The notes under the pieces: model-generated | Told to the model about the DNA's origin: nothing | Databases searched by the model: none | The model's input: the letters and a program-made list of their open reading frames with translations, nothing else | Part shown: positions 14,037-27,947 of the stretch, piece by piece | Position numbering within the stretch: position 1 is the first letter of the stretch | Layout: the number at the start of each line of letters is the position of its first letter | Source of the DNA: Streptomyces sp. SCUT-3 | GTDB taxonomy: Bacteria; Actinomycetota; Actinomycetes; Streptomycetales; Streptomycetaceae | Direction of reading: 5' to 3' | DNA length: 64,000 nucleotides | NCBI RefSeq assembly: GCF_014083985.1 | Contig: NZ_CP046907.1 | Location: forward strand, 5,218,501-5,282,500 | Made by a program: the position numbers and the translations under genes

Positions 14037-14139
14037 GCCGGGCGGCGCCGGATCCGCTCGCGGGCAGGGCCAAGGTCACCCGGCGACTGATGTGGCCCGT
14101 CGCCGACGGCGTTCCGGAACGCATTGCTTCCCGGCCGCG

Positions 14140-14430
14140 ATGTCTGTTGCGACGGCTGGGCGGATGTCGTTGTCAACCCGGTCACTGGCGTACAGGATCT
14201 CGTAGTTCTCGAACGGCGTCACCTTGGCGACCCGCCGGAAGGACTCCGGCTCCAGCTTTGGCGCACCCCGGTCATCAGAGGTACCGATCAGGTCCACGTT
14301 GCCGGTGAACAGCTCGCACGGGATCCCGCCGGCCCGCATGGTTTGGTTCCCAAGCAATGCTCAGCCATAGGCCGTCTAAACGGAGTTGGGCGAGTGTCGG
14401 CCGCACGTCGGCGTACAGGTCGTCAGCCAC
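14140..14430 (-). pseudogene. HAD-family hydrolase fragment, frameshifted and truncated
   Basis: Read on the minus strand, ADDLYADVRPTLAQLR and LDGLWLSIA run in one frame. From about 14350 the text continues in another frame with GNQTMRAGG, ELFTGNVDLIGTSDD, KLEPESFRRVAKVTPFENYE and ILYASDRVDNDIRPAVA. Together these resemble the second half of a HAD hydrolase (the DRVDNDI acidic motif) with both ends missing and one frameshift. It lies in the 14037-14600 gap at the left edge of the accessory island and looks like decay around an insertion site. The rest of the gap holds no gene. Confidence 0.6.
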
Positions 14431-14440
14431 TGAGCAGACA

Positions 14441-14466
14441 CCCCGTACGGGGCAAGGGGATACCAT
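14441..14466 (+). promoter_or_regulatory. Palindrome and possible -10 upstream of the MORC-Z1 operon
   Basis: CCCCGTACGGGG at 14441-14452 is a perfect palindrome; TACCAT at 14461-14466 could be a -10. Both sit about 140-160 bp before the first gene of the operon. No good -35 was seen. Confidence 0.25.
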
Positions 14467-14600
14467 GACCTTCTGAGTAGACCCCGGATGGATTCCCAGC
14501 CGTCTGCGGTCCGAAACGGGAAGGCTCTTTCCGGCCCAGGCGGCTGCCAGGGGAGCGCGGTCACTGACCAACCGCGTTCAGAGCCAGGGGGGATACACAC

Positions 14601-16073
14601 ATGAAGTACGACCTTGCGCCGCCCAAAGCAGTGGGCATGGTGGCGTCGCTGAGTTCGCTCGGCTACTCGCTGCCCGATGCCGTCGCGGACCTGGTGGACA
14701 ACAGCGTCTCCGCAGGTGCCAGCACCATCGATGTGGAGTTCACCTGGGAGGGCCCTGAATCATGGGCTGCCATCATCGACGACGGTCGAGGCATGTCCGA
14801 GGACGGGCTGGTCACTGCCATGACGGTGGCTGCACGCTGGTCGGCGAAGGACCGAACCAAGAGGGACCTGGGTCGCTACGGCGTGGGTCTCAAGTCCGCC
14901 TCGTTCTCCCAGTGCCGACTGCTGACGGTTTGCACCGCCGAGAAGGAGGGCCCCTGGACGACGCGTACCTGGGACTTGGATGTGGTCGAGGAGACCGGCG
15001 AGTGGCGACTGCTGCGTGAGCCACCTGCCGAGGCCGGCGCCGTGCTGGAACGGCTCACGCGCAACCGGAGGCACGGCACCGTCGTGCTCTGGCAGCGACT
15101 GAACGGATACCTTCAGGTGTCTGCCGGTGACAAAAAGACCCAGCAGGGCTTCTACGACGAGATCCCGAAGGTGAGCAACCACCTCGGGCTCGTCTTCGCA
15201 CGCTTCCTCACCGGATCCGCGGCCCTGACGCTCCGGGTGGCCGGGGAATCCGTGCAGCCGTGGGACCCGTTTCTGTCGTCCCACCCATCGGTCCGGCGCC
15301 TGCCGGACGAGAAGCTCCCGCTCGACGGTCACTGGGTGAAGGTCAGGCCCTACGTTCTGCCCGGCCTGCAGCGACTCACCCAAGATGAGGCTGAAGGCTC
15401 CGGTGGCCCCAAGGGATGGCTCCGGCAGCAGGGCTTCTACGTGTATCGGCGGGACCGGCTCATCCTGGCAGGCAGCTGGCTCGGAATCCGTGGTCTGCGG
15501 CGCGAGGAGAAATACAACCTCGCTCGTATCGCGATCGACATCCCTGCGGAAACGGACAGCCAGTGGCAGGTCGACGTGCGGAAGGCGGCGGTCGTGCCGC
15601 CCGTCCCGCTGCGCCGGCATCTGGCACGCATCGCTCGGTCGGCGCGTACCGAGGCCGCCGCAACCGTGAAGCACAAAGGCCGCATCTCTGCGAGGCAGCG
15701 GTCCGGCGACCTGCAGTTCGCGTGGAAGGTCAGCCGCGACAACAACACGGTGAACTGTCGGATCAACCGCAACCATCCGCTGGTCCAAGCTGTCCTCCAA
15801 AGCGGTGGAAACGAACCGGCCGATGTCCGTGCTCTGCTGCGCCTGCTTGAGGAAACTGTTCCGGTGTCGGCGTTGCGGGTTCTGCACGAACCCGACACCG
15901 CAGACGACCCGGAGCCCTTCGGCGGCACGGTGAAGGCGACTCCGGAAGCCGTCGAGGTGGCCCAGCGGATGCTCGACATCTTCCTTTCCCAGGGACGGTC
16001 CCGGAGCGACGCTTTGCAGGTCATCCGAACCACCCAGCCCTTCGATCAACTCGAAGGTTTTTGGACCGCCTGA
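14601..16073 (+). CDS. MORC-like GHKL ATPase of a restriction-modification-like system
   Basis: The 490-residue protein starts at ATG 14601 after AGGGGGG. GHKL motifs are complete: N box with Asn34 in DAVADLVDNSVSAGA, G1 in IIDDGRGMSED (residues 58-67), and G2 LGRYGVGLKSAS (90-101). An S5-like second domain has a conserved Lys near residue 330 in WQVDVRKAAVVPP, the arrangement of MutL/Hsp90/MORC ATPases. The C-terminal 130 residues are unassigned. Prokaryotic MORC proteins are predicted to remodel DNA-protein complexes in restriction systems. It leads a four-gene operon; its stop is 68 bp before the Z1 gene start. Codon use is less GC-biased than the flanking core genes, consistent with transfer. 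Confidence 0.88.
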   Translation: MKYDLAPPKAVGMVASLSSLGYSLPDAVADLVDNSVSAGASTIDVEFTWEGPESWAAIIDDGRGMSEDGLVTAMTVAARWSAKDRTKRDLGRYGVGLKSASFSQCRLLTVCTAEKEGPWTTRTWDLDVVEETGEWRLLREPPAEAGAVLERLTRNRRHGTVVLWQRLNGYLQVSAGDKKTQQGFYDEIPKVSNHLGLVFARFLTGSAALTLRVAGESVQPWDPFLSSHPSVRRLPDEKLPLDGHWVKVRPYVLPGLQRLTQDEAEGSGGPKGWLRQQGFYVYRRDRLILAGSWLGIRGLRREEKYNLARIAIDIPAETDSQWQVDVRKAAVVPPVPLRRHLARIARSARTEAAATVKHKGRISARQRSGDLQFAWKVSRDNNTVNCRINRNHPLVQAVLQSGGNEPADVRALLRLLEETVPVSALRVLHEPDTADDPEPFGGTVKATPEAVEVAQRMLDIFLSQGRSRSDALQVIRTTQPFDQLEGFWTA

Positions 16074-16141
16074 CGCCTTGCCGGCGGCGGGGCGTAGCTT
16101 CCCCGCCTGCTGACCGGAAATCTGCCTACATGGAGGCATCT

Positions 16142-18928
16142 GTGGATTCGGTCGTTCGCGACGACATGGCCTACGCGCTGAAGGTTGCGGTCCAGCTGCT
16201 CCCGGAAGACCGGCAGGCCACCTCCGAGGAGGTGACCAAGGCGGTCACCGGCGGAGTGATGGTCGCGAACCTCAACGGCGTTATGGTCGACGCCGCGGAA
16301 CTCCGCAAACTCGTCGAGGCGCGGACGAACGTCTTTCAGGAGAGCTCGGCCGCCCTGAGCGACGACACCGATCACGTCCCGTGGTTGCCGGACGCCAAGA
16401 ACGACCGTCCTTGGCCTTTCTGGCTCCGCTACCAGCGGTATTTGAGCTGGGTCCGCAACATGCCACTGTCGGTAGTACGGAGCATCGACCGCACCACGGA
16501 CGACGTTCTCGGAGCCTTGGAGGACCCCCGGCGCTCCGGAAAGTGGCGGCGTACTGGGCTGGTGATTGGACAGGTTCAGTCGGGCAAGACCGGACAGTTC
16601 ATCGGCCTCGCGGCGAAGGCAGCCGACGCCGGCTACCGGCTCATCGTCGTCTTCGCCGGTATTCACAACGACCTTCGGTCGCAGACCCAGTTGCGGATGG
16701 ACGAGGGCCTGCTCGGCTTCGACACCCAGTACCAGCTGAGGTCCGACCAGGAAGGCGCCAACCGTTACATCGGCGTGGGTGCTCTTTCCGGCGAGGAACG
16801 GTTGGCAGTGGCCTCCCTGACCAACAGCGCGGAGCAGGGCGATTTCGACCAGAAGACCGCCTCCAAGGCGAACCTTCCGATCGGCCACTTCCCCATCGTG
16901 CTCGTGGTCAAGAAGCACCCGAGGATCATCGACCACCTGCGCCGTTGGGTGACCGAGAACCACGGTGTGGAAGGCCTGAAGACCGGGCGGAAGATCGTCC
17001 GGGAGATTCCGCTCTTCGTCATCGATGACGAGGCGGACAACGCGTCCATCAACACCTCCGAGATCGACGACGACCCGACGAAGATCAACGCCTGTATGCG
17101 TGAGCTGTTGAGCAGCTTCGACCGCGCGGCGTACGTCGGCTACACGGCCACGCCGTACGCGAACATCTACATAGACCCCGACGCGAAGAACGATGCTGTC
17201 GGCGAGGACCTCTTCCCCGAGAGCTTCATCCGGACGCTGCCCTCACCCTCCAATTACCTCGGTCCGGAGAGACTGTTCGGGCTGACGGCCTACCGGGAGG
17301 AAGAGGACGACATCGAACCGCTGCCGCTAGTGCGGTACGCGCAGGACACTGCCTCGTGGATCCCTGCCAAGCACAAGTCCGACTACAGGCCGACGGGCAA
17401 TCTGCCGGACAGCCTGGTCGACGCCATCCACTCCTTCGTCCTTGCCTGCGCCACGCGCCGGGCTCGTGGACAGGAGTACGAGCACAACTCGATGCTGGTC
17501 CACGTCACCCGGTTCACCAACGTGCAGCACCATGTGACCGAGCAGGTCGACGACTACGTGCGGATGATGCGGCACAGTCTGCAGGACCGCTACGGCACTT
17601 CCTCGGAGCAGGTCAGGAAGGAACTCCGGGAGTTCTGGGAAAAGGACTTCGAGACGACGACCTCCCACTTCCCCAAGGACGAGGCCCCCAGAGTCGCCTG
17701 GGAACAGGTGGATGCCGAGATCCTGCCGGCCCTCCACAAGATCCAGGTCAAGGCCATCAACGGTGTCGCCAAGGATGCGCTCGACTACTACACGACCCGG
17801 AAGACCGGCCTGTACGTCATCGCCGTTGGCGGCCAGAAGCTGTCCCGCGGCCTGACGCTCGAAGGGCTGTCGATCAGCTACTACCTGCGGTTCGCCAAGA
17901 CCTACGACACCCTGCTGCAGATGGGCCGCTGGTTCGGCTATCGGCCGGGCTACGAGGACTTGTGCCGCCTTTACACGACCGCGGAGCTGGAGTCTGCCTA
18001 TCAGGAGATCACCGAAGCCACCGACGAACTGCGGCGCGAGGTCGAGGAGATGTCCGTCCTCGGCCTCACCCCCCGGCAGTTTGGCCTGAAGGTACGCACG
18101 TCGTCCCTCGGCCTCACCATCACAGCGGCCAACAAAATGCGTCAGGGCACCCGGGTCCGCCTCAGCTACTCTGGAGAACTTGCTGAGACCACCACGTTCC
18201 CCCTGCTCGGCGGCGTTCCGGAGAAGAACTTCCGGACGCTGCAGAGTTTCGCCGAGAAGTTGCTTCAGTACTCGGAACCACAACCGGATCCGGCGAGCGG
18301 AAGCCTTGTCTGGTCCGGCATTCCGGCGGAGACGGTGGCGGCAGGGTTTTTCGACGCCTACAAGGCGGACCCCAATGTGCACCGTATCCGTCCCGACGCC
18401 CTCGCCGGCTATATCCGCCACCATGCCAAGTTCGGGGAGCTGGACCGGTGGACGGTGCGTGTGGTGTCCCGGCGCGAAACCTCCTCGTCGGTCGATGTCG
18501 CTGGTCACCGGATCGGGCCCGTTGTTCGCGCGGCCTCGAAGACCGTCCAGCAGTCCGTTGAGCGGCACGTTGTCAAGCGTGTGCTGAGCCCCAGGGACGA
18601 GGGTCTTGATCTGGACGAGGAGCAGTGGAAGACGGCTCTCGAACGCACCAAGAGGCTGGCCAGGAAGAAGAACGAGACGAAGCGCAACGGTGAGCTCCGG
18701 GATCCTGCGCTGCCCTCCAGTCTGCAGATCCGCATGCAGCGCCGTCTTGACCAGCCCCTCCTTCTGCTGTACGTCATCGAGCCTCCTGATAGCGCCAAGC
18801 TGCAGGTGCCGCTCGTCGGCTTCGCCGCGAGCTTTCCGAAGTCGAACATCGACAGTGCCAAGGAGTACGTGGTCAATCCCACATGGTTCAGTCAGACCGA
18901 CTCCGATGACGCTGAGGAGGACGAGTGA
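16142..18928 (+). CDS. Z1-domain superfamily II helicase-like ATPase
   Basis: The 928-residue protein is read from GTG 16142, which has GGAGG at 16132-16136; an in-frame ATG at 16130 lacks a site. Helicase motifs: Walker A GQVQSGKT (143-150), Walker B VIDDEAD (about 294-299), GYTATPYAN near 331, and the Z1 signature GGQKLSRGLTLEGLSISYYL (about 563-582) with QMGRWFGYRPGY near 593. The Z1 family belongs to SF2 and is found almost only beside MORC-like ATPases, nucleases and methyltransferases. It probably supplies NTP-driven translocation or DNA unwinding. The GTGA overlap with the next gene shows translational coupling. Confidence 0.9.
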   Translation: MDSVVRDDMAYALKVAVQLLPEDRQATSEEVTKAVTGGVMVANLNGVMVDAAELRKLVEARTNVFQESSAALSDDTDHVPWLPDAKNDRPWPFWLRYQRYLSWVRNMPLSVVRSIDRTTDDVLGALEDPRRSGKWRRTGLVIGQVQSGKTGQFIGLAAKAADAGYRLIVVFAGIHNDLRSQTQLRMDEGLLGFDTQYQLRSDQEGANRYIGVGALSGEERLAVASLTNSAEQGDFDQKTASKANLPIGHFPIVLVVKKHPRIIDHLRRWVTENHGVEGLKTGRKIVREIPLFVIDDEADNASINTSEIDDDPTKINACMRELLSSFDRAAYVGYTATPYANIYIDPDAKNDAVGEDLFPESFIRTLPSPSNYLGPERLFGLTAYREEEDDIEPLPLVRYAQDTASWIPAKHKSDYRPTGNLPDSLVDAIHSFVLACATRRARGQEYEHNSMLVHVTRFTNVQHHVTEQVDDYVRMMRHSLQDRYGTSSEQVRKELREFWEKDFETTTSHFPKDEAPRVAWEQVDAEILPALHKIQVKAINGVAKDALDYYTTRKTGLYVIAVGGQKLSRGLTLEGLSISYYLRFAKTYDTLLQMGRWFGYRPGYEDLCRLYTTAELESAYQEITEATDELRREVEEMSVLGLTPRQFGLKVRTSSLGLTITAANKMRQGTRVRLSYSGELAETTTFPLLGGVPEKNFRTLQSFAEKLLQYSEPQPDPASGSLVWSGIPAETVAAGFFDAYKADPNVHRIRPDALAGYIRHHAKFGELDRWTVRVVSRRETSSSVDVAGHRIGPVVRAASKTVQQSVERHVVKRVLSPRDEGLDLDEEQWKTALERTKRLARKKNETKRNGELRDPALPSSLQIRMQRRLDQPLLLLYVIEPPDSAKLQVPLVGFAASFPKSNIDSAKEYVVNPTWFSQTDSDDAEEDE

Positions 18929-19932
18929 TCGACGAAGACCTCTGGCGGAAGCTGGAGATCCCTCAGCAGAGCCGGGGTCGCTCCACCCGCCGCCTGTACC
19001 CGGAGTCGCTCCACGACATCCACATCGGGGTGACACACCCCGGACGGCAGCGCATGCTGTTGGTCCGGGCCGGTGCCCGCGCGGCGGACCGGGTACGCCC
19101 TCTGCTTACCGAACTGCATGAGACGCGGGGGCTGAGTCTCTCCTGCAGTTCGCTCACCGACCGCGAGTTCGAACTGCAGATCTCGCTCACGGCCGGGGAC
19201 CTCCGGGAGGTGTTCACGCCGCTCGCCGAGGACATCGCCCGCACCGCCAAGGACGCGACTCCGGAAACTGTCCTTGAGCAGGCGGTTCGCCGGTACACCC
19301 GCTGGCAGGAGCTGATGCGCAGCGTCGGTACCACAGGTCTGGGCAAGGAAGCGCGGCTGGGGCTCTACGGTGAGCTGCACTACCTACGCCACCACCTCAT
19401 GAAGGTAATGCCTGCCGATGAGGCGGTGGACTCGTGGACCGGGGCCGAGGGCAGCAACCAGGACTTCCAGCTTCCGTCCGCCGTCGCCGTCGAGGTGAAG
19501 GCGACGGCGAAGAAGAACCCTTCCACGGTTCGGGTCACCAGCGAGCGCCAGTTGGACGGCCGCGGTGTCCGACGACTGGTCCTTGCCCGGCTGATTCTGG
19601 ACGAACGCCGGGGCGGGCTGGGCACGAGCCTCAACTCCGTGGTGGCCGGCATCCGGGCTTCGCTGAACATTGCCGCGGTCGCGGCCAGGTTCGAGACCCG
19701 GCTGGCCTGGGCCGGCTACCTCCCCCATCAGCGGGACCTCTACGACGAACCGCGCTACACCGTGCGGCGTACCGACCTGTGGAATGTCGGGGACGGCTTC
19801 CCCCGCATCGTGGAGACGGACCTCCCCGAAGGAGTCGGCAACTGTTCCTACGAAATCAGTGTCAGCGCACTTGAAGAACACCGAACGACGACCGACGAGG
19901 TCATCCGAGCGATCAGAGGTACCGATGGCTGA
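18925..19932 (+). CDS. PD-(D/E)XK motif protein (DUF4420 type), putative nuclease subunit
   Basis: The 335-residue protein starts at GTG 18925 overlapping the Z1 stop and overlaps the next gene by 8 bp. The likely nuclease core is GLYGELHYL (Glu about 150), then Asp about 180 in NQDFQLPS and VAVEVKAT (Glu189-x-Lys191): the E...D...E-x-K pattern of restriction-endonuclease folds. The N-terminal 140 residues are a mixed domain without a recognised motif. The family occurs next to Z1 and AIPR genes in predicted restriction-modification islands, so it is the best candidate for the DNA-cutting subunit here. Confidence 0.8.
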   Translation: MIDEDLWRKLEIPQQSRGRSTRRLYPESLHDIHIGVTHPGRQRMLLVRAGARAADRVRPLLTELHETRGLSLSCSSLTDREFELQISLTAGDLREVFTPLAEDIARTAKDATPETVLEQAVRRYTRWQELMRSVGTTGLGKEARLGLYGELHYLRHHLMKVMPADEAVDSWTGAEGSNQDFQLPSAVAVEVKATAKKNPSTVRVTSERQLDGRGVRRLVLARLILDERRGGLGTSLNSVVAGIRASLNIAAVAARFETRLAWAGYLPHQRDLYDEPRYTVRRTDLWNVGDGFPRIVETDLPEGVGNCSYEISVSALEEHRTTTDEVIRAIRGTDG

Positions 19933-21925
19933 GGCGTCCCTTGCCGACTACGCCCGCACACTCACCAACGAGATACAGACGCGTGCGGAGGCCGACGACG
20001 GCTCCATCCCCAAGACGTTCACCCGATACGTGCTCGAAATCCTGGAAGAGGGCGGGTTCGTCTCCAACACCACCGTTGCCTATCACGACGGACCGGGGGT
20101 GATGATCTTCGGTTACGGATACAGCGACGACGGCACGGTCCTCGACCTGTACACCACTGACTTCAGCCTGACGCCCACGGTCGACAAACTCACCAAGACG
20201 ATCATGGATCGTCAGTACAGGCGGCTGCTCGCCTTCCTCCGCAAAGCCGATTCGATCCAGGACCACTTCGACCCGACGACAGAGATTCACCAGCTCTGCG
20301 AGGGGGTCGGGAAGGCACTCGTCGGTGCCACACGGATCCGGCTCTTCCTCCTCAGCAACTACGAGTCCAGTGCGCGCAGCATGCCGGGACCCCAGGAGTT
20401 CGACGGGCTGCCGGTGGAACACCACCTGTGGGACCTCGGACGGCTGTACCGCCACGAGACTTCCGGCACGGGCGGCGAACCGATCGTCGTCGAGTTCGAC
20501 CCGCCGCTGCCCTGCCTCTCCGTGCAGAGCGATGGGTCGGACCTGTCAGTAGCTCTTGCCGTCGTCCCTGGTCGGCGGCTTGCCGAATTGTACGAGGAAC
20601 ACCGGACCCGGCTGCTCGAGCTCAACGTTCGGGCTTTCCTGCAAGCACGGGGCAAGGTCAACGGCGGCATCCGCAAGACACTGCGCGAGGAGCCCGGCCT
20701 CTTTCTCGCCTATAACAACGGCATCACCGCGACGGCACTGGAAGCGGAGTTCGAGGAGGATGCCAACGGCAACCGGACCGGCATCCGCCGGTTGATCGGC
20801 CTACAGATTGTCAACGGCGGGCAGACCACGGCCACCCTTCACCACGTCCTGACCCGGGACAAGAACGATCTTTCCGGTGTCAGTGTCCAGATGAAACTGA
20901 CCCTGGTCCCCGCCGGCCAGCTCATGGAGATGGTGCCGCGCATCTCCGAGTACTCGAACACGCAGAACAAGGTGACGCTGGTCGACTTCTCCTCCAACGA
21001 CAAGTTCCATGTCGACTTCGAGCGCATCAGCCGCACCTTGTGGGCGCCGTCCGTGGACGGCAGTGGGCCGGACACCCGCTGGTGGTACGAGCGCGCCCGT
21101 GGCTCCTACGCTGTGGAAGAGGCGAAGTACGAGACCCCGGCTGCCAAGAAGAAATTCAAGCTGGCCAACCCGACCGCGAAGCGGTTCACCAAGTCGGACC
21201 TCGCCAAGTACGTGAACCTGTGGAACAGCCTGCCGTACTGGGTGGCCAGGGGCGCGCAGAAGAACTTCGCGGAGTTCCAGATGCGGGTCAAGGAAACCCC
21301 GCCGATCGTCGACGCGGAGTACTGCCGCCGGGTCATCGCCATGGGCATCCTCTTCAAGGAGGTCGACAAGGTCGCCAAGGCCCACGGCGCGGGTAGTCAA
21401 AAGGCCGTCGTGACTGCCTACACCATGGCACGTCTGTGCGAAGCGACGGAACGGCGCATCGACCTGGACCGTATCTGGCGTGAGCAGACAGTGAGTGCGG
21501 CCGTCGTCCAAGCCGTCGACGACCTCTGCTCTCAGGTGAAGGACACCGTCATCCAGGAAGGAAGGCTCGCCACAGAGTGGGGCAAGAATCCACAGTGCTG
21601 GGAGGACGTCCGGGCCATCGACTGGCAGGTCCCGGACGAACTCGCTGCTGAACTCCTCGACCGACCCGTTGGCTTCGCGGTCGATACACAGGAAGAGGAC
21701 GAGGAGCACTTGGCCCGGTTGCAGGAGATCCCGCCCGCCGAATGGCACGCCTTGGCCGACTGGGCGCGCGAAACGCGCCGAATGGAGCTGAAGGAACAGC
21801 AGGCGGCAACTGCTGCGGCCAACAAGCTGGAGACCGGTGCGGAGATCGCTCCCTACCAAGTCCGGCAGGCGCTGGCGGTGTACGAGAAGGCTGTCGAGCT
21901 GGGCTTCGGCCCGGAGGACCGGTAG
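19925..21925 (+). CDS. AIPR (abortive-infection phage-resistance) family protein
   Basis: The 666-residue protein starts at ATG 19925 inside the end of the previous gene. The AIPR core is clear: LELNVRAFLQARGKVNGGIR (231-250), FLAYNNGITATA (260-271) and LIGLQIVNGGQTTATLHH (290-307). Members are linked to phage resistance and accompany Z1/DUF4420 genes; the biochemical activity is not settled. The C-terminal region is helical and charged (EEDEEHLARLQEIPPAEWH). It ends the operon, convergent with the methyltransferase, with a bidirectional hairpin between. Confidence 0.88.
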   Translation: MAEASLADYARTLTNEIQTRAEADDGSIPKTFTRYVLEILEEGGFVSNTTVAYHDGPGVMIFGYGYSDDGTVLDLYTTDFSLTPTVDKLTKTIMDRQYRRLLAFLRKADSIQDHFDPTTEIHQLCEGVGKALVGATRIRLFLLSNYESSARSMPGPQEFDGLPVEHHLWDLGRLYRHETSGTGGEPIVVEFDPPLPCLSVQSDGSDLSVALAVVPGRRLAELYEEHRTRLLELNVRAFLQARGKVNGGIRKTLREEPGLFLAYNNGITATALEAEFEEDANGNRTGIRRLIGLQIVNGGQTTATLHHVLTRDKNDLSGVSVQMKLTLVPAGQLMEMVPRISEYSNTQNKVTLVDFSSNDKFHVDFERISRTLWAPSVDGSGPDTRWWYERARGSYAVEEAKYETPAAKKKFKLANPTAKRFTKSDLAKYVNLWNSLPYWVARGAQKNFAEFQMRVKETPPIVDAEYCRRVIAMGILFKEVDKVAKAHGAGSQKAVVTAYTMARLCEATERRIDLDRIWREQTVSAAVVQAVDDLCSQVKDTVIQEGRLATEWGKNPQCWEDVRAIDWQVPDELAAELLDRPVGFAVDTQEEDEEHLARLQEIPPAEWHALADWARETRRMELKEQQAATAAANKLETGAEIAPYQVRQALAVYEKAVELGFGPEDR

Positions 21926-21938
21926 CAAGCATGACATG

Positions 21939-21974
21939 AGCCTGATCCGGGCGGACCTCTGCCCGGATCAGGCT
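21939..21974. terminator. Bidirectional terminator between AIPR and methyltransferase genes
   Basis: Perfect 14-bp arms (AGCCTGATCCGGGC at 21939-21952, complement at 21961-21974) enclose an 8-base loop, midway between the two convergent stops. Confidence 0.75.
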
Positions 21975-21991
21975 GCTATCGGTCGCCCTCC

Positions 21992-23908
21992 TTATTCCGC
22001 CACCAGCTCGTTGTCGTAGGTGGCGGAATACAGGTCCTCGCCCGAGGGCTTGCCCACGCAGTTCTTCCGCAGCGGACACAGTGAGCAGTGGGGATCCTTC
22101 GTCCGGCAGTATTCATTGCCGACCACCCGAAGCGCGGCCATCCGCAGGGAAGCGTTGGTTCCCGCGCCCACCAGGCGGATGAGGTTGATGCGCCCGTCGG
22201 TCAGTCTGTTGGTGCGATCGGCCTCGCTGCCGTTCACGCGGGCGCCCACGCGGAGGACGCCCTGGGTGACGAGCAGCAAATCCTGCTCGCCGAGCAGCAG
22301 GGTGTAGAGGGCCTCTTCGGCCGGCTTGAAGCCGAGGCGCTCCGGGATCTCGTTCTTTCGCTCTTCCCCCCACATGCTCCGCTCGTCCACCAGTGGCTGC
22401 AGACGACTCAGCCTTTCCTTGGCAGCCTGCGTCGGCGCCTGCTTGAGGAGCTGCTCGAACATCCTGCTCGAGATGCTCTTCTTGCCCCTGACCAGCTCCA
22501 TCAGGTCCCCGAGTTCATGAGGCTTGACTCGGCTTGCCGAGAGCAGAGCCACGACCGCGGCCTGGGGGGAGTGCATCTCCGGGCCGGGGTACTGGTACCA
22601 GCCGGCTTCGCGCCGTGAGCTCTCCGCCCAGTCACTCAGTTCGTCACGGACCTGCCGCCAGTGCGGATTGACCCCTCCCGCCTGCTCGGGGGCAGGGGCA
22701 ACCGCCTTGGCCGCAGCCTTTCCCAGGAGCGGCGGAACGGCATTACCGATCTGCCTGAAGGCATCACTGCGCGTCCCGGCGAAGCGGAACCGGTCGGGGA
22801 AGGTCTGGATACGCGCAGCCTCACGGACGGTGAGAGTGCGGTTGTCCTCGGGATGGATGTACCAGTAGCCGTCCTTGGCGATGTGCGCGGTGATGGACCG
22901 GCTTCGTTCGTCCCAGGCCAGCCGCTTGTACTTGTCCGTGAAATTGTCGGCGCGATACCGCTGCAGTTCTTTGGGGATCTGCGAATACAGAGTCTTCGAG
23001 GTCATACCTGAGAAGATTTCCAAGTCGTCCTCGCGGACCCGCCGGGTCATGTGGTCGTGGATGACCCCTTCGGGAGCCTCCTGCCTCATGAGTTCCAGAA
23101 AACTGTTCGGTTCCGCGGGCTGCTGGTAGGGCAGCTCTCGGTCGCCGATGCGCTCACGTGCCACGACCTGGAAACGCGGCAGATCTGAGATGGCCTGCCG
23201 CAGAGTGACACTCTCCTCGTTCTTCGCGTCCCACTCGAAGTGCTCGACATCGTTCCGGGCAAGCAGTATCAGCCGCTTCCGATGCTGGGGAACGCCATGG
23301 TGCCAGGCGTCGACCAGGCGTACCTGGGTCGCGTAGCCGAGGTCCTCCAGTTTCTCCTCGATGATCCGGATCACCGCAAAATCGTCGCCCAGCCCCATGT
23401 CGGGCACGTTCTCCATGAGGACAGCGCGAGGGCGGACCTGGGTTACCACATCGAGATAAGCCAGCCAGAGCTGTTTGCGGTGATCCTGCGGGTCCCGTCC
23501 GTGATTGCGGACCAGGTCACGAATCTTGCTGCGCCCGGCCCGGCTGAAGGGCTGGCAGGGAGGACCTCCGGCCACCAGGTCCACCCGGGCGACGGACAGC
23601 ACATCGACCAGATGGTTCCTGACATGTGGATCCCCGAGGTCCATGTGCAGGCTCAGGCCGGGAAAGTTGCTGGCGTGGGTTTCCAGTGCCCTCTCGTCGA
23701 AGTCGACGCCGGCAGCCATGGTCCAGCCGGCCTCCTGGATCCCCAGGCTCAGACCGCCCGCACCGGTGAAGAGATCGACGGCCAGTCGCTCGCCCTGATG
23801 ACGTTCCACCCACGCGGCGAAGCCGTTCTCGTCGCAATGGTCGGGGTGAGGATCAAGCTTGAGGTAATCCGACCGCTCCAAGGGAACTCCATACGTCCCC
23901 TTTGTCAC
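21992..23908 (-). CDS. C5-cytosine DNA methyltransferase fused to an endonuclease III-like Fe-S domain
   Basis: The 638-residue protein is read from GTG 23908, which has GGAGGG upstream; an in-frame GTG at 23923 has no clear site. Methyltransferase motifs: I VDLFTGAGGLSLG (about 44-56), IV GGPPCQPFS with catalytic Cys118, VI ENVP (166), VIII QHRKRLILLA (208), IX RSITAH and X RQIGNAVPP (about 385). Residues about 405-638 form an extra domain ending in C601-x6-C608-x2-C611-x5-C617, exactly the [4Fe-4S] loop spacing of HhH-GPD glycosylases such as EndoIII/MutY. The catalytic Lys and Asp expected in an active glycosylase are not evident. It probably protects self DNA in the island's system. Confidence 0.88.
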   Translation of the reverse strand: MTKGTYGVPLERSDYLKLDPHPDHCDENGFAAWVERHQGERLAVDLFTGAGGLSLGIQEAGWTMAAGVDFDERALETHASNFPGLSLHMDLGDPHVRNHLVDVLSVARVDLVAGGPPCQPFSRAGRSKIRDLVRNHGRDPQDHRKQLWLAYLDVVTQVRPRAVLMENVPDMGLGDDFAVIRIIEEKLEDLGYATQVRLVDAWHHGVPQHRKRLILLARNDVEHFEWDAKNEESVTLRQAISDLPRFQVVARERIGDRELPYQQPAEPNSFLELMRQEAPEGVIHDHMTRRVREDDLEIFSGMTSKTLYSQIPKELQRYRADNFTDKYKRLAWDERSRSITAHIAKDGYWYIHPEDNRTLTVREAARIQTFPDRFRFAGTRSDAFRQIGNAVPPLLGKAAAKAVAPAPEQAGGVNPHWRQVRDELSDWAESSRREAGWYQYPGPEMHSPQAAVVALLSASRVKPHELGDLMELVRGKKSISSRMFEQLLKQAPTQAAKERLSRLQPLVDERSMWGEERKNEIPERLGFKPAEEALYTLLLGEQDLLLVTQGVLRVGARVNGSEADRTNRLTDGRINLIRLVGAGTNASLRMAALRVVGNEYCRTKDPHCSLCPLRKNCVGKPSGEDLYSATYDNELVAE

Positions 23909-24541
23909 TGCACTGCCCTCCACGCCCCATTAGGCCGACGATCACCAAGGCGGCACGATCGGTCACTCAAGGTGACCGTCCCCACAGGGAAAAACAGTGC
24001 TGTGGTGCAGGCAACTTGTCGGCCCGAACAAGCAGAATCCGCGAGCGGGCTGGAGGCTCCAACCGGAGCCTCGTCTGTCCTCTCGCGGAACTGCGGCCAA
24101 TGATCTCTGAGGTCGACGAGTCTACGCGATTTGCAGGGGTGATCCTCAAGCCTTCGGTTCCCGCAGCGACGCTCGGAGGGCCTTGAGGTCTCGGGTTGGC
24201 TTCGGCCGGCGCGGCCCGGAGAGCACTACGGCGGCCGCCGTCCCCCGGAGTGACCTGCGTGATGACCCGAGTCGTCGCGTGGTCCCGCAGCGGCGCCCAG
24301 GATCGACTCGCGGCTACGGTGCCGAAGAAGAGCGGTGCTGTTGCCCATCGCCTGTACGCGACGGTGATGGCAACGGCCACGCCGGAGGCCACGGCGGCGT
24401 GCATGCTGACTTCCCGTCAGGCCATGGCGGTCATGGTCAGCCGCAATCCCGCGATCATCGCGGCGACCAGGGCGACGATTTTCCGCGGTGTGCCCAGCGC
24501 CAGGAGTCGTGCCGTACCAGCGTCTCCGCGCCGAACTCACC
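23909..24541. other. Gene-free stretch upstream of the methyltransferase
   Basis: About 630 bp with no convincing gene. A weak minus-strand reading (24404 downward, MHAAVASGVAVAITVAYRR) begins like a membrane segment but is not supported by a ribosome binding site or sustained codon bias. It may be the relic of a small membrane-protein gene. A 7-bp-arm inverted repeat (23960-23978) is listed separately. Confidence 0.4.
23960..23978. promoter_or_regulatory. Inverted repeat upstream of the methyltransferase
   Basis: CGGTCAC and GTGACCG are perfect 7-bp arms around TCAAG, about 52 bp upstream of the methyltransferase start. The position fits an operator controlling methyltransferase expression, as with controller proteins or self-binding methyltransferases in R-M systems; no such regulator gene is seen. 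Confidence 0.35.
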
Positions 24542-24571
24542 CAGTGAGGGACTCTGTCGGGGATCTTGAGG
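24542..24571 (+). repeat. Left terminal inverted repeat of the IS
   Basis: 30 bp, exact reverse complement of 26306-26335. Confidence 0.9.
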
Positions 24572-24646
24572 TTCCGCGGACAGGGGTGCCGGCGGTTCGG
24601 GATGCTTCGGCTGGTCCTGTACAGCCCCGTCTTCCCGAGGTGGCCA

Positions 24647-26298
24647 GTGTCCGTTCGTCCCCTGTCCGGCGTGGTGGTGCCCGAGCTCACGGCTCGGACG
24701 GCCCGAGCCGGCAATCCTCGTGGGACCACGGCCATGTGGGTGCGTGACCACCTCGACGGGCTCTGGGACGATGAGGACTTCGTCTCCTGGTATTCGCGCG
24801 ATGGCCGTCCCGGCCTCTCCCCGGCCCAGCCGGCCACCGTGTGCGTGCCGCGGTCTCCTGCTCAACCTCTCCGACCGGCAGGCGGCCGAGGCGGTGCGGT
24901 GCCGGATCGACTTCAAGTACGCCCTCGCGATGGACCTGGACGACCCCGGCTTCCACCACAGCGTGCTCACGGACTTCCGTGACCGTCTCGGCCGGGACGG
25001 CCGCGCCGACCAGCTCCTGTCCCTGGCCCTGGACCGGATACGTGACGCAGGAATGATCGAAGAACGCGGAAGGCAGCGGACCGACTCCACCCAGATTCTG
25101 GCCGCGGCCCGGGAACTCACCCGCCTGGAACTGGTCCTCGAAGCTGTCCGCGCCGCGCTGGAGGAAGCCTCCCGGGACACCCCCGACGTCCTGGACGACC
25201 TGGTGGACGCCGACTGGGCCACCCGTTACGGCAGGCCGGTCCGCCTGCCCGCCCAGCCCAGCCACCCCGTCACCCGGCTCAAGCAGGCCGGAGCGGACGC
25301 CCCCCAACTCCTCCAGAGCCTGCCGCCCCACCGGCGTGGTCCTCGAGCCGGGGCCCTGCGGCAGATCATGGTGCAGAACTTCCTCGTCGACGCCCGCGGT
25401 GCCCTGCGTCCCCGCACCGAGAAGGACGGCCGGCCCAAAGGAGTAGTCCGGATCATCTCGCCCTACGACCCGGACGCCCGCCAGGCCGTCCGGGGCAACA
25501 CCCGCTGGAACGGCTACCTGGTCCACGTCACCGAGACCTGCGACACCGACGCCCGCGTCAACCTGATCACGGACATCGCCACCACCAGCCTCACCCGGGA
25601 CACCCAGGCCCTGCCCGGCATCCACACCCGACTCCGTGACCGCCGACTGCTGCCCGCCCAACACCTGGTCGACGGCGGCTACATCTCCACCGCCCTGCTG
25701 AACGACGCCGCACGCCATCACCGGATCCAGCTCGTCGGACCGGTCAAGGCCGGCGGAGCACGGCAGAAGAAGGAACAGACCGGTTTCACCCGCGACGACT
25801 TCACCATCGACTTCGACCGGCACCAGGTCACCTGCCCCAACGGCCGGACCAGCACCACCTGGGTCGAGGCCCCCGCCATGGCGCCCTGCACAGCCGCCCG
25901 GTTCGCCTCAAGTCAGTGCGACCCCTGCCCGGACCGGCCTGCCTGCACCCGGGGAAAGTCCGCCCGCACCGTGAACTTCCTCCCCCGCCGCCTGCACGAA
26001 CTACAGGCCCGCAACCTCACCGACCCAGCAAGACCCCCACTGGAAACGGCTCTACGCCACCCGGTCCGGCGTCGAAGGCACCATCTGCGAACTCGTCAAC
26101 GCCCACCAAGCCCACCGAAGCCGCTACCACGGCCACCGCAAGACCCACGTCCAACACGTCCTGACCGGCATCGCCATCAACATCGAACGCCTCGCCTCAC
26201 GAACGCACCCCCACCACCCCAGAGGTCTCACAGCGTTCCAGCACTACCTCGACGCACGCGACCTGACCTGGGAATGCTGGTGGCGGCAAGGCAAATGA
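24647..26298 (+). pseudogene. IS1182-family transposase, two frameshifts
   Basis: The reading starts at GTG 24647 after GAGG and runs in one frame through LTARTARAGNPRGTTAMWVR and LWDDEDFVSWYSRDGRPG. It moves to a second frame near 24845 at LLNLSDRQAAEAVRCRIDFK, a conserved IS1182 block (LSDRQAAEAVR). That frame carries the DDE core (RTDSTQILAAAR, DARQAVRGNTRWNGYLVHVT, LVDGGYISTALLND) and the cysteine cluster CDPCPDRPAC. Near 26035 it must shift again to reach DPHWKRLYATRSGVEGTICE, HRKTHVQHVLTGIAINIERL and the stop at 26298. Two shifts make programmed frameshifting unlikely; the copy appears dead. Confidence 0.85.
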
Positions 26299-26305
26299 AC
26301 CAGGC

Positions 26306-26335
26306 CCTCAAGATCCCCGACAGAGTCCCTCACTG
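26306..26335 (-). repeat. Right terminal inverted repeat of the IS
   Basis: 30 bp, exact reverse complement of 24542-24571, 8 bp after the transposase stop. Confidence 0.9.
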
Positions 26336-26338
26336 TCC

Positions 26339-26488
26339 TGCAACGAGATTCATCGCCTCTTCACCACGGTCGCCGTTCAGCCTCTCCACGACATCGCCCA
26401 CCGACTCGGCTGGTCCGACTGGCGACGCCGCCATCAGGAACGATCACGCACCAGTCATTACCGGCGACAAGCCGCAACTCAGAAATGA
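26339..26488 (+). pseudogene. C-terminal remnant of another transposase
   Basis: Just outside the IS, an open frame reads CNEIHRLFTTVAVQPLHDI, then HRLGWSDWRRRHQERSRTSH and YRRQAATQK before a stop at 26488. The WRRRHQ...SHYRRQ tail is typical of C-termini of Streptomyces DDE transposases of IS701-like type. About 49 codons remain; the N-terminal part is missing and no matching piece was found left of the IS. Confidence 0.6.
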
Positions 26489-26491
26489 AGA

Positions 26492-26920
26492 TCATGACGT
26501 TGGGGCGGCCGGGTTGCCGGCCTGGCCCCTCAGGATGCGTTCGAACCAGTCTGCAGTCAGTTCCGCGCATCGACCGGGTGAACCGGCCACGTGGACTGTC
26601 CCCACCACAGACCCCTGAAGGGGAATGTACATCTGGTCGTGGAGTTCGGTGCCGAGCACGCCCTGCCCGTCGAAGAACGCACCGAAGACATGGGAAATGA
26701 CATTGGTTCCCGGCGTCACCGCATAGAGCAGGGCCAGCAGATGCGCGAATCCTGTTTCCTCGGGGCGGAGGATGAGGGTGTCGTCAGGGTCGCACGGCCA
26801 GGTGACGGCTCGCTCGCGTAGTACGGACACGAACCTGCGCCATGCGCCGTCCAGCGTCTCGAATGCGTCCTCGTCAGCTTCCCCGACTGAGAACCAGGGC
26901 ACGTACACGCGGCCGTCCAT
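26492..26920 (-). CDS. Small protein of unknown function at the island edge
   Basis: The 142-residue reading starts at ATG 26920 (MDGRVYVPWFSVGEADEDAF); a longer start at 26968 is possible. I recognise no family. It is acidic, with aromatic-rich segments (VTWPCDPDDTLILRPEE, NVISHVFGAFFDGQGV, DWFERILRGQAG). Codon use is intermediate between island and core genes. It lies between the transposase remnant (4 bp away, convergent) and the chromosomal dehydrogenase, so it may be cargo of the island or a resident gene. Confidence 0.6.
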   Translation of the reverse strand: MDGRVYVPWFSVGEADEDAFETLDGAWRRFVSVLRERAVTWPCDPDDTLILRPEETGFAHLLALLYAVTPGTNVISHVFGAFFDGQGVLGTELHDQMYIPLQGSVVGTVHVAGSPGRCAELTADWFERILRGQAGNPAAPTS

Positions 26921-27034
26921 GGCCTGCACCGTAGCTGACAGGTGACTGATCAAGCCGACGCCACCCAAACCACGATGGAGATCACGATCTACAGCTGGAG
27001 TGCTAACCCCTCACCGGCGCGGACGGGAAACGCC

Positions 27035-27070
27035 GTGGGCTCCGGGCCGGAGTTCCGGCCCGGGGCCCAC
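27035..27070 (-). terminator. Terminator of the 3-hydroxybutyryl-CoA dehydrogenase gene
   Basis: 17-bp arms with one mismatch (27035-27051 against 27054-27070) lie directly after the minus-strand gene that ends at 27081; no U-tract. Confidence 0.6.
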
Positions 27071-27080
27071 GGTCGGCCCG

Positions 27081-27947
27081 TCAGGCGTACGTGTAGAAGC
27101 CAGCGCCGGTCTTGCGGCCGAGGCGGCCTGCCTCCACCATGCGCTGCAGCAGCGGGGGAGCGGCGTACAGCGGCTCCTTGTACTCGTGGTACATCGAGTC
27201 GGCGATGGCGGCGATGGTGTCCAGGCCGATCAGGTCGGACAGCTTGAGCGGGCCCATCGGGTGGGCGCAGCCCATCTCCATGCCGTTGTCGATGTCCTCG
27301 CGGCTGGCGACGCCCGACTCCATCATCCGGATCGCGGACAGCAGGTACGGGACCAGCAGGGCGTTGACGACGAAGCCGGAGCGGTCCTGCGCCTGGATCG
27401 CGTGCTTGCCCAGGGGGCCGGTGACCAGCGCCTCGGCGCGGGCCAGGGTCTCCTCGGAGGTGGTCAGCGAGGGGACCAGCTCGACGAGGCGCTGCACCGG
27501 CGCCGGGTTGAAGAAGTGGATGCCGAGCACCTGCTGGGGCCGGGAGGTGGAAACGGCCAGCTTCACCAGCGGGATCGAGGAGGTGTTGGAGGCCAGGATG
27601 GCGTCCGGGCGCGTGACCACCTGGTCGAGGACCTGGAAGATCTCCGTCTTGACCTGCTCGTTCTCCACGACGGCCTCGATCACGAGGTCGCGGTCGGCGA
27701 ACTCGCCCAGGTCGGTGGTGAAGGACAGCCGCTCCAGGGCCGCGTCCCGCTCCTCGGGGGTGATCTTGCCGCGTTCGGCGGCCTTGTCCAGGGAGCCGAG
27801 CAGCCGGGTGCGGCCTATCTCCAGGGCGTCACCGGTGGTCTCGGCCACCCGCACGTCGAGTCCCGAGCGGGCGAAGACCTCCGCGATCCCCGAGCCCATG
27901 AGGCCGCAGCCCACTACACCGACGCAACGGATGTCGCTCAACGCCAT
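27081..27947 (-). CDS. 3-hydroxybutyryl-CoA dehydrogenase
   Basis: The 288-residue protein starts at ATG 27947 (MALSDIRCVGVVGCGLMGSG), the usual length for the family. The Rossmann GxGxMG is VVGCGLMGSGIAEVFARSG. Further motifs are LVIEAVVENEQVKTEIF, ILASNTSSIPL, the catalytic His region VLGIHFFNPAPVQRLVELVP, and NALLVPYLLSAIRMMESGVA. It oxidises (S)-3-hydroxybutyryl-CoA with NAD(P), in fatty-acid or PHB/butanoate metabolism or supply of acyl-CoA precursors. It marks the return to core chromosome after the island and is divergent from the hydrolase gene. Confidence 0.93.
   Translation of the reverse strand: MALSDIRCVGVVGCGLMGSGIAEVFARSGLDVRVAETTGDALEIGRTRLLGSLDKAAERGKITPEERDAALERLSFTTDLGEFADRDLVIEAVVENEQVKTEIFQVLDQVVTRPDAILASNTSSIPLVKLAVSTSRPQQVLGIHFFNPAPVQRLVELVPSLTTSEETLARAEALVTGPLGKHAIQAQDRSGFVVNALLVPYLLSAIRMMESGVASREDIDNGMEMGCAHPMGPLKLSDLIGLDTIAAIADSMYHEYKEPLYAAPPLLQRMVEAGRLGRKTGAGFYTYA

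Follow-up and report, generated by a model that had tools for sequence, protein, structure and literature searches.

A probable restriction-modification-like defence locus in Streptomyces sp. SCUT-3 with a methyltransferase that carries a MutY-fold domain

What is the role of a cluster of five genes that lies in a GC-poor stretch of a Streptomyces chromosome, and what is a domain with the fold of a DNA repair glycosylase doing at the end of its cytosine methyltransferase? The cluster is present in a 64,000-nucleotide (nt) stretch of Streptomyces sp. SCUT-3 DNA (contig NZ_CP046907.1, positions 5,218,501 to 5,282,500; here called the window), which spans 5.22-5.28 Mb in a genome of 6.08 Mb assembled as a single contig. 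A first-pass annotation of this DNA had proposed a restriction-modification-like defence system, in which an operon for a GHKL (MORC-type) ATPase, a Z1-domain superfamily 2 (SF2) ATPase, a DUF4420-like PD-(D/E)XK protein and an AIPR family protein is met by a convergent C5-cytosine methyltransferase gene. Domain matches, co-occurrence of the genes, conserved catalytic motifs, a vsr gene linked in most relatives, the surrounding island, the precedent of CglI/NgoAVII, and the MutY fold, iron-sulfur (FeS) loop and missing catalytic Asp of the methyltransferase extension together suggest that the locus is probably a horizontally acquired, MZA-like/MORC-type system of this restriction-modification-like kind.

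Profile searches agree with all five domain assignments, and the genes lie where they had been placed, except that the methyltransferase gene begins at 23923 rather than at 23908, which is its second in-frame GTG. The operon is compact, as had been claimed: 56 nt separate the MORC stop codon from the Z1 ATG, the end of the Z1 gene overlaps the DUF4420 gene, which begins with GTG, by 4 nt, and the end of the DUF4420 gene overlaps the AIPR gene, which begins with ATG, by 8 nt. The 643-amino-acid (aa) methyltransferase is encoded on the minus strand and converges on AIPR. The MORC protein matches Pfam HATPase_c_3 (2.3e-30) and PADLOC MzaB (7.3e-100), and its D30/N34, DDGRGM and GRYGVGLKS motifs are conserved across 71 homologues. 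Its assignment as a MORC rather than a paraMORC protein is supported because the sequence GFYVYRRDRLI at residue 278, whose key positions are kept in the 71 homologues, fits the motif GhXhhpXXRhl of Iyer and colleagues. The Z1 protein (Pfam Z1, 2.1e-84) contains GQVQSGKTG, DDEAD and DTLLQMGRWFG, all essentially invariant in the alignment; the last of these, at residue 593, fits the Iyer helicase motif DThhQXuRhFG. In the DUF4420 protein (Pfam DUF4420, 2.6e-82), residues E150, D180, E190 and K192 are conserved in 69 homologues and fit an E-D-ExK nuclease pattern. The AIPR protein matches both Pfam AIPR (7.8e-91) and AIPR_N (7.2e-35); sequence searches of the PDB found no solved relative of either the Z1 or the AIPR protein. 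The methyltransferase core (Pfam DNA_methylase, 4.1e-55) ends near residue 410, and its C123 (PPC), E171-N172-V173, Q213/R215/R217 and GNAVPP motifs vary little or not at all across 20 sequences.

A gene set of this type has been described before. In Iyer, Abhiman and Aravind (2008), a third operon type combines MORC with a Z1-type SFII helicase and a restriction endonuclease (RE)-fold nuclease, often together with DCM, Vsr and AIPR (PMC2292703). The link to these neighbourhoods drawn in the first-pass annotation stands: the MORC, helicase and E-D-ExK motifs given there are present in the window proteins, and a cytosine methylase and an AIPR protein accompany them. Unlike that operon type, the window has no Vsr, which is frequent but not obligatory there, and the parts of PMC2292703 consulted say nothing of a MutY-like methyltransferase extension. 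As an account of earlier work, however, the reference to Iyer and colleagues was incomplete, since MZA and a 2022 NLP survey (PMC9523054) describe the system as well. In the latter, a putative "Type II" defence system with about 20% identity to MZA comprises a Z1 protein of 925 aa, a DUF4420-type PD-(D/E)XK protein, a cytosine methyltransferase, AIPR and MORC. This set is identical to that of the window, although its description in that section of PMC9523054 gives no mechanism and no C-terminal domain of the methyltransferase. Because the same set has been published as "Type II" and the window proteins fit the motifs of Iyer and colleagues, the gene set is already known as a predicted defence system, and the first-pass interpretation, though reasonable, had appeared before as a prediction. 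What is added here is that the methyltransferase is fused to a MutY-fold domain and that vsr has been lost.

The expectation that the five genes occur together was borne out. With close Z1 homologues defined by at least 55% identity and close methyltransferase homologues by at least 51%, each is present in 21 of 294 Streptomycetales genomes, and these are the same 21 for both; in the 20 of these that are relatives, the five genes lie inside a 20-kb stretch. A scan of genome contigs, partly from the same genomes, gave 61 Z1 loci, and in those from actinobacteria that have close homologues the set is retained wherever enough of the contig is available. The gene order differs among loci (L091, L126, L046/L078/L079) while the set is the same, and this persistence argues that the association is functional. 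Alphaproteobacterial plasmids likewise carry vsr, the methyltransferase, a MORC-type ATPase, Z1, PD-(D/E)XK and AIPR genes together. Among side observations, the system of Streptacidiphilus sp. 4-A2 (L124) is disrupted by many frame changes, which reflect either decay or sequencing errors, and human-gut contigs labelled "Bacteriophage sp." (MT836521, MT836482 and others) encode Z1 relatives with 23-35% identity.

In most relatives the space that separates AIPR from the methyltransferase also holds vsr (Pfam Vsr, 3.8e-17), usually together with a small AbrB/MazE-like gene. Vsr repairs deaminated 5-methylcytosine (5mC), and a vsr gene beside the methyltransferase, as also seen in Alphaproteobacteria, is expected if the enzyme does make 5mC. 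Given this linkage and the invariant C5-methyltransferase motifs, self-protection by the methyltransferase is plausible. Neither vsr nor the AbrB/MazE-like gene is present in the window copy, in its closest relative (L077), or in L039, L099, L100 and L102; no vsr open reading frame (ORF) was found in the window, where the AIPR-methyltransferase gap is 69 bp. In a sub-group of the systems (L036, L033, L037 and L038) a conserved protein of ~210-226 aa (MIPEFEI...), which matches no Pfam family, is encoded between AIPR and the methyltransferase, near vsr.

Several observations weigh against a methylation-based, restriction-type system. In the window copy vsr is unlinked; the single Vsr match in the genome lies 2.65 Mb away, and no match to the proteins of the system is found near it. 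At the catalytic-base position of the MORC N-box (residue 30, window 14688-14690), where MutL and MORC proteins usually have Glu, Asp is present in at least 97% of the 71 homologues. The remaining points concern MZA (Gao et al. 2020). The window encodes homologues of MzaB, MzaC, MzaD and MzaE consecutively and in the same order, and these are the best named profiles in PADLOC and NCBIfam. However, the NCBIfam scores are 391 bits against an equivalog cut-off of 850 for MzaB, 699 against 1500 for MzaC, 145 against 420 for MzaD and 345 against 1050 for MzaE. Full membership in MZA was rejected, since all four scores fall far below the cut-offs, and the window system is best described, from its sequence, as a divergent relative. 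Among the ORFs scanned, no mzaA sigma factor gene was recognised next to the operon: the upstream island ORF at 14124-14465 has no Pfam match and only the phosphatase gene lies beyond it. Validated MZA, which runs from the sigma factor mzaA to mzaE, is summarised without a methyltransferase in PMC9523054, and for this reason its defence may be independent of methylation. The four-gene operon could be an MZA-type defence in which self is recognised without 5mC, and the methyltransferase could be a separate module that travels in the same islands, such as an orphan or anti-restriction enzyme with Vsr. In the window the methyltransferase gene does lie on the strand opposite to the operon, with a probable terminator of its own, and across loci it takes up different positions. 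Yet a methyltransferase gene, as linked in the window and unlike MZA, is present at every locus with a close operon whose contig is long enough; the distant loci L212 and L213, which have no AIPR gene, retain a fused methyltransferase alongside MORC, Z1 and DUF4420; and in Agrobacterium the methyltransferase gene is co-directional with the MORC gene and overlaps it. A separate module is therefore considered unlikely, and a restriction-modification-like system that includes the methyltransferase is preferred.

The first-pass annotation was correct about the C5 core of the methyltransferase, but the protein is no ordinary Dcm. Its METHYLTRANSFERASE extension forms a helical domain (residues ~411-626) that matches no Pfam family. 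Because a structure search with the model of the whole enzyme gave only methyltransferases among the best 50 matches listed, the domain was modelled alone (AlphaFold2, 31 sequences), with a pLDDT (predicted local distance difference test) of 84. For this model the best 50 PDB matches listed by Foldseek consist of MutY, EndoIII, thymine-DNA glycosylase and ROS1. Alignment with VIA-align gave Z scores of 14.4 for human MUTYH (213 residues, root-mean-square deviation 5.3), 14.2 for E. coli MutY (196 residues, 4.5) and 11.5 for the thymine-DNA glycosylase 1kea, where, for helical proteins, values under about 13 may be uninformative. The assignment to the MutY fold holds because the top values exceed this level, all belong to one superfamily, and the sequence concurs. 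The NCBIfam mutY profile (TIGR01084) matches 8 of 8 homologous domains tried, seven of them at E <= 0.014 (best 1.2e-9, weakest 0.1), and a model of this domain matches short, glycosylase-sized ORFs in other genomes, which presumably are glycosylases. Sequence comparison of the domain was otherwise weak: apart from the lack of a Pfam match, a low-depth hhalign comparison with Nth matched the FeS region alone (probability 72). An ordinary, unfused Dcm was rejected on these profile and structure matches. Residues 606-622 contain a C-x6-C-x2-C-x5-C motif whose four Cys are invariant in the alignments, and the loop is predicted to carry a [4Fe-4S] cluster. Thus, the domain resembles MutY/endonuclease III (HhH-GPD) glycosylases in fold and in FeS-loop spacing. 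It differs from them in being fused to a methyltransferase and in having no catalytic Asp: the position of this residue in MUTYH (D138 of MutY) aligns to Thr in the window protein and is never Asp in 53 unique homologues.

One alternative is that the MutY-like domain is an active mismatch glycosylase for the G:T mismatches left by deaminated 5mC, and substitutes for Vsr in the window copy. Archaeal MIG, a mismatch repair enzyme of this kind, is encoded beside a methyltransferase gene. The fold, which is that of MutY, EndoIII and thymine-DNA glycosylase, the invariant FeS loop, and the absence of vsr from both the window locus and its nearest relative fit such a role. However, the catalytic Asp is absent from every copy and the domain is equally present at loci that have vsr, so this explanation was set aside as highly improbable. 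The simplest reading is instead that the domain is an actinobacterial fusion kept for DNA binding or base inspection and not for glycosylase chemistry, since no copy has the catalytic Asp and the fusion, which Actinomycetota conserve, was not found in the other phyla checked: in Deltaproteobacteria and Bacteroidota, related operons have distant methyltransferases without the domain. A bolder version of this reading, which is possible though doubtful, is that the Actinomycetota MORC/Z1 methyltransferase took over a dead glycosylase of the MutY type, which would flip bases to read mismatch, damage or hemimethylation, tying methylation, or the licensing of the nuclease complex, to inspection. No methyltransferase-glycosylase fusion in such systems was found in the literature, a search of open-access papers that does not prove absence.

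Variants of the fusion exist. L046, L078 and L079 have two MORC-like genes, and their methyltransferase gene is co-directional and more divergent. The C-terminal domain of this enzyme is nearer to MutY (1.2e-9) and seems to have retained the Glu of MutY while lacking its Asp; it is possibly an intermediate stage of degeneration. Two more methyltransferases with fused MutY-like domains (L214 and L215) are found in genome G558, which belongs to a different class of actinobacteria; in the 17.5 kb examined at L214, there is a match to vsr and none to Z1 or MORC.

How might the products work together? In the preferred, restriction-modification-like reading, the methyltransferase would mark self DNA with 5mC at some site. 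The Z1 ATPase, probably as a dimer like the CglI N-protein, would form with the MORC ATPase an ATP-driven complex that engages or remodels unmarked DNA, and the DUF4420 PD-(D/E)XK subunit would cut DNA without the mark. The MutY-fold domain, having lost glycosylase chemistry, would most likely bind DNA and interrogate bases, helping the methyltransferase to find or hold its target. A precedent is CglI/NgoAVII, in which a Z1-dimer ATPase drives a separate nuclease and which also has a methyltransferase (PMC4267653). Like the window, this system pairs a Z1-containing SF2 ATPase with a nuclease and a DNA methyltransferase; unlike the window, it has three genes, a phospholipase D (PLD)-fold nuclease with a B3 domain, and neither MORC nor AIPR, where the window has PD-(D/E)XK, MORC and AIPR proteins. 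The AIPR protein, which is related to the N-terminal region of DndB (PMC3506569), would regulate or trigger the effector. Since AIPR has been linked to abortive infection as well as to restriction-modification (PMC3506569), the locus could instead work mainly through abortive infection by AIPR, the remaining genes serving as sensors, and a weak PADLOC match to AbiU (8.2e-17) is present at the locus. Against this, L212 and L213 keep the other core genes without AIPR, so AIPR is not the constant effector, and the predicted nuclease residues of DUF4420 are conserved; this alternative is accordingly rated as quite improbable.

The cluster lies within an island of lower GC content, as the first-pass annotation had stated: 65.5% in the island and 64.7% in the five genes, compared with 75.2% in the remaining window. 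The island is flanked by a SpoIIE-type phosphatase gene and a 3-hydroxyacyl-CoA dehydrogenase gene. In two relatives (G297 and G200) these genes are only ~0.4 and ~1.1 kb apart, versus ~13 kb here, and thus the ~13 kb represent an insertion at a nearly empty site; horizontal acquisition is part of the best explanation of the locus. AIPR and the methyltransferase gene are about 70 bp apart. This gap contains a perfect inverted repeat (Table 1), its 69 nt fold at -36.5 kcal/mol, and the hairpin is probably a bidirectional terminator. The island also holds an insertion sequence (IS) element (24544-26333) whose 27-bp terminal inverted repeats are perfect. It is probably inactive because its transposase ORF (DUF772/DDE_Tnp_1_6) seems to be frame-changed near both ends.

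Table 1. Positions, in the window, of the features of the locus
Feature	Position	Strand	Length	Basis or remark
MORC-type GHKL-S5 ATPase (MzaB-like)	14601..16073	+	490 aa	Pfam, PADLOC, NCBIfam, motifs
Z1-domain SF2 ATPase (MzaC-like)	16130..18928	+	932 aa	Pfam, NCBIfam, motifs
DUF4420 PD-(D/E)XK putative nuclease (MzaD-like)	18925..19932	+	335 aa	Pfam, conserved residues
AIPR family protein (MzaE-like)	19925..21925	+	666 aa	Pfam, NCBIfam
Perfect 14-bp inverted repeat (hairpin)	21939..21974	.		arms 21939-21952 and 21961-21974
Methyltransferase C-terminal MutY/EndoIII-fold (HhH-GPD) domain, predicted FeS loop, without catalytic Asp	21992..22693	-		residues ~411-643, ordered to ~626
C5-cytosine methyltransferase core	22694..23923	-		residues 1-410; Pfam, invariant motifs
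Low-GC inserted island	14037..27083	.		GC shift and near-empty site in relatives

The MORC/Z1/PD-(D/E)XK/AIPR set is widespread, and no mechanism for it is published in the literature searched. The conserved fusion of the proposed self-marking enzyme to a repair-glycosylase fold that has lost its chemistry offers a concrete handle on whether self-marking uses a DNA-inspection module. In addition, the vsr gene, which is usually present beside the methyltransferase and occasionally lost, provides natural pairs of loci with which to ask how mutagenic 5mC from a defence system is tolerated.

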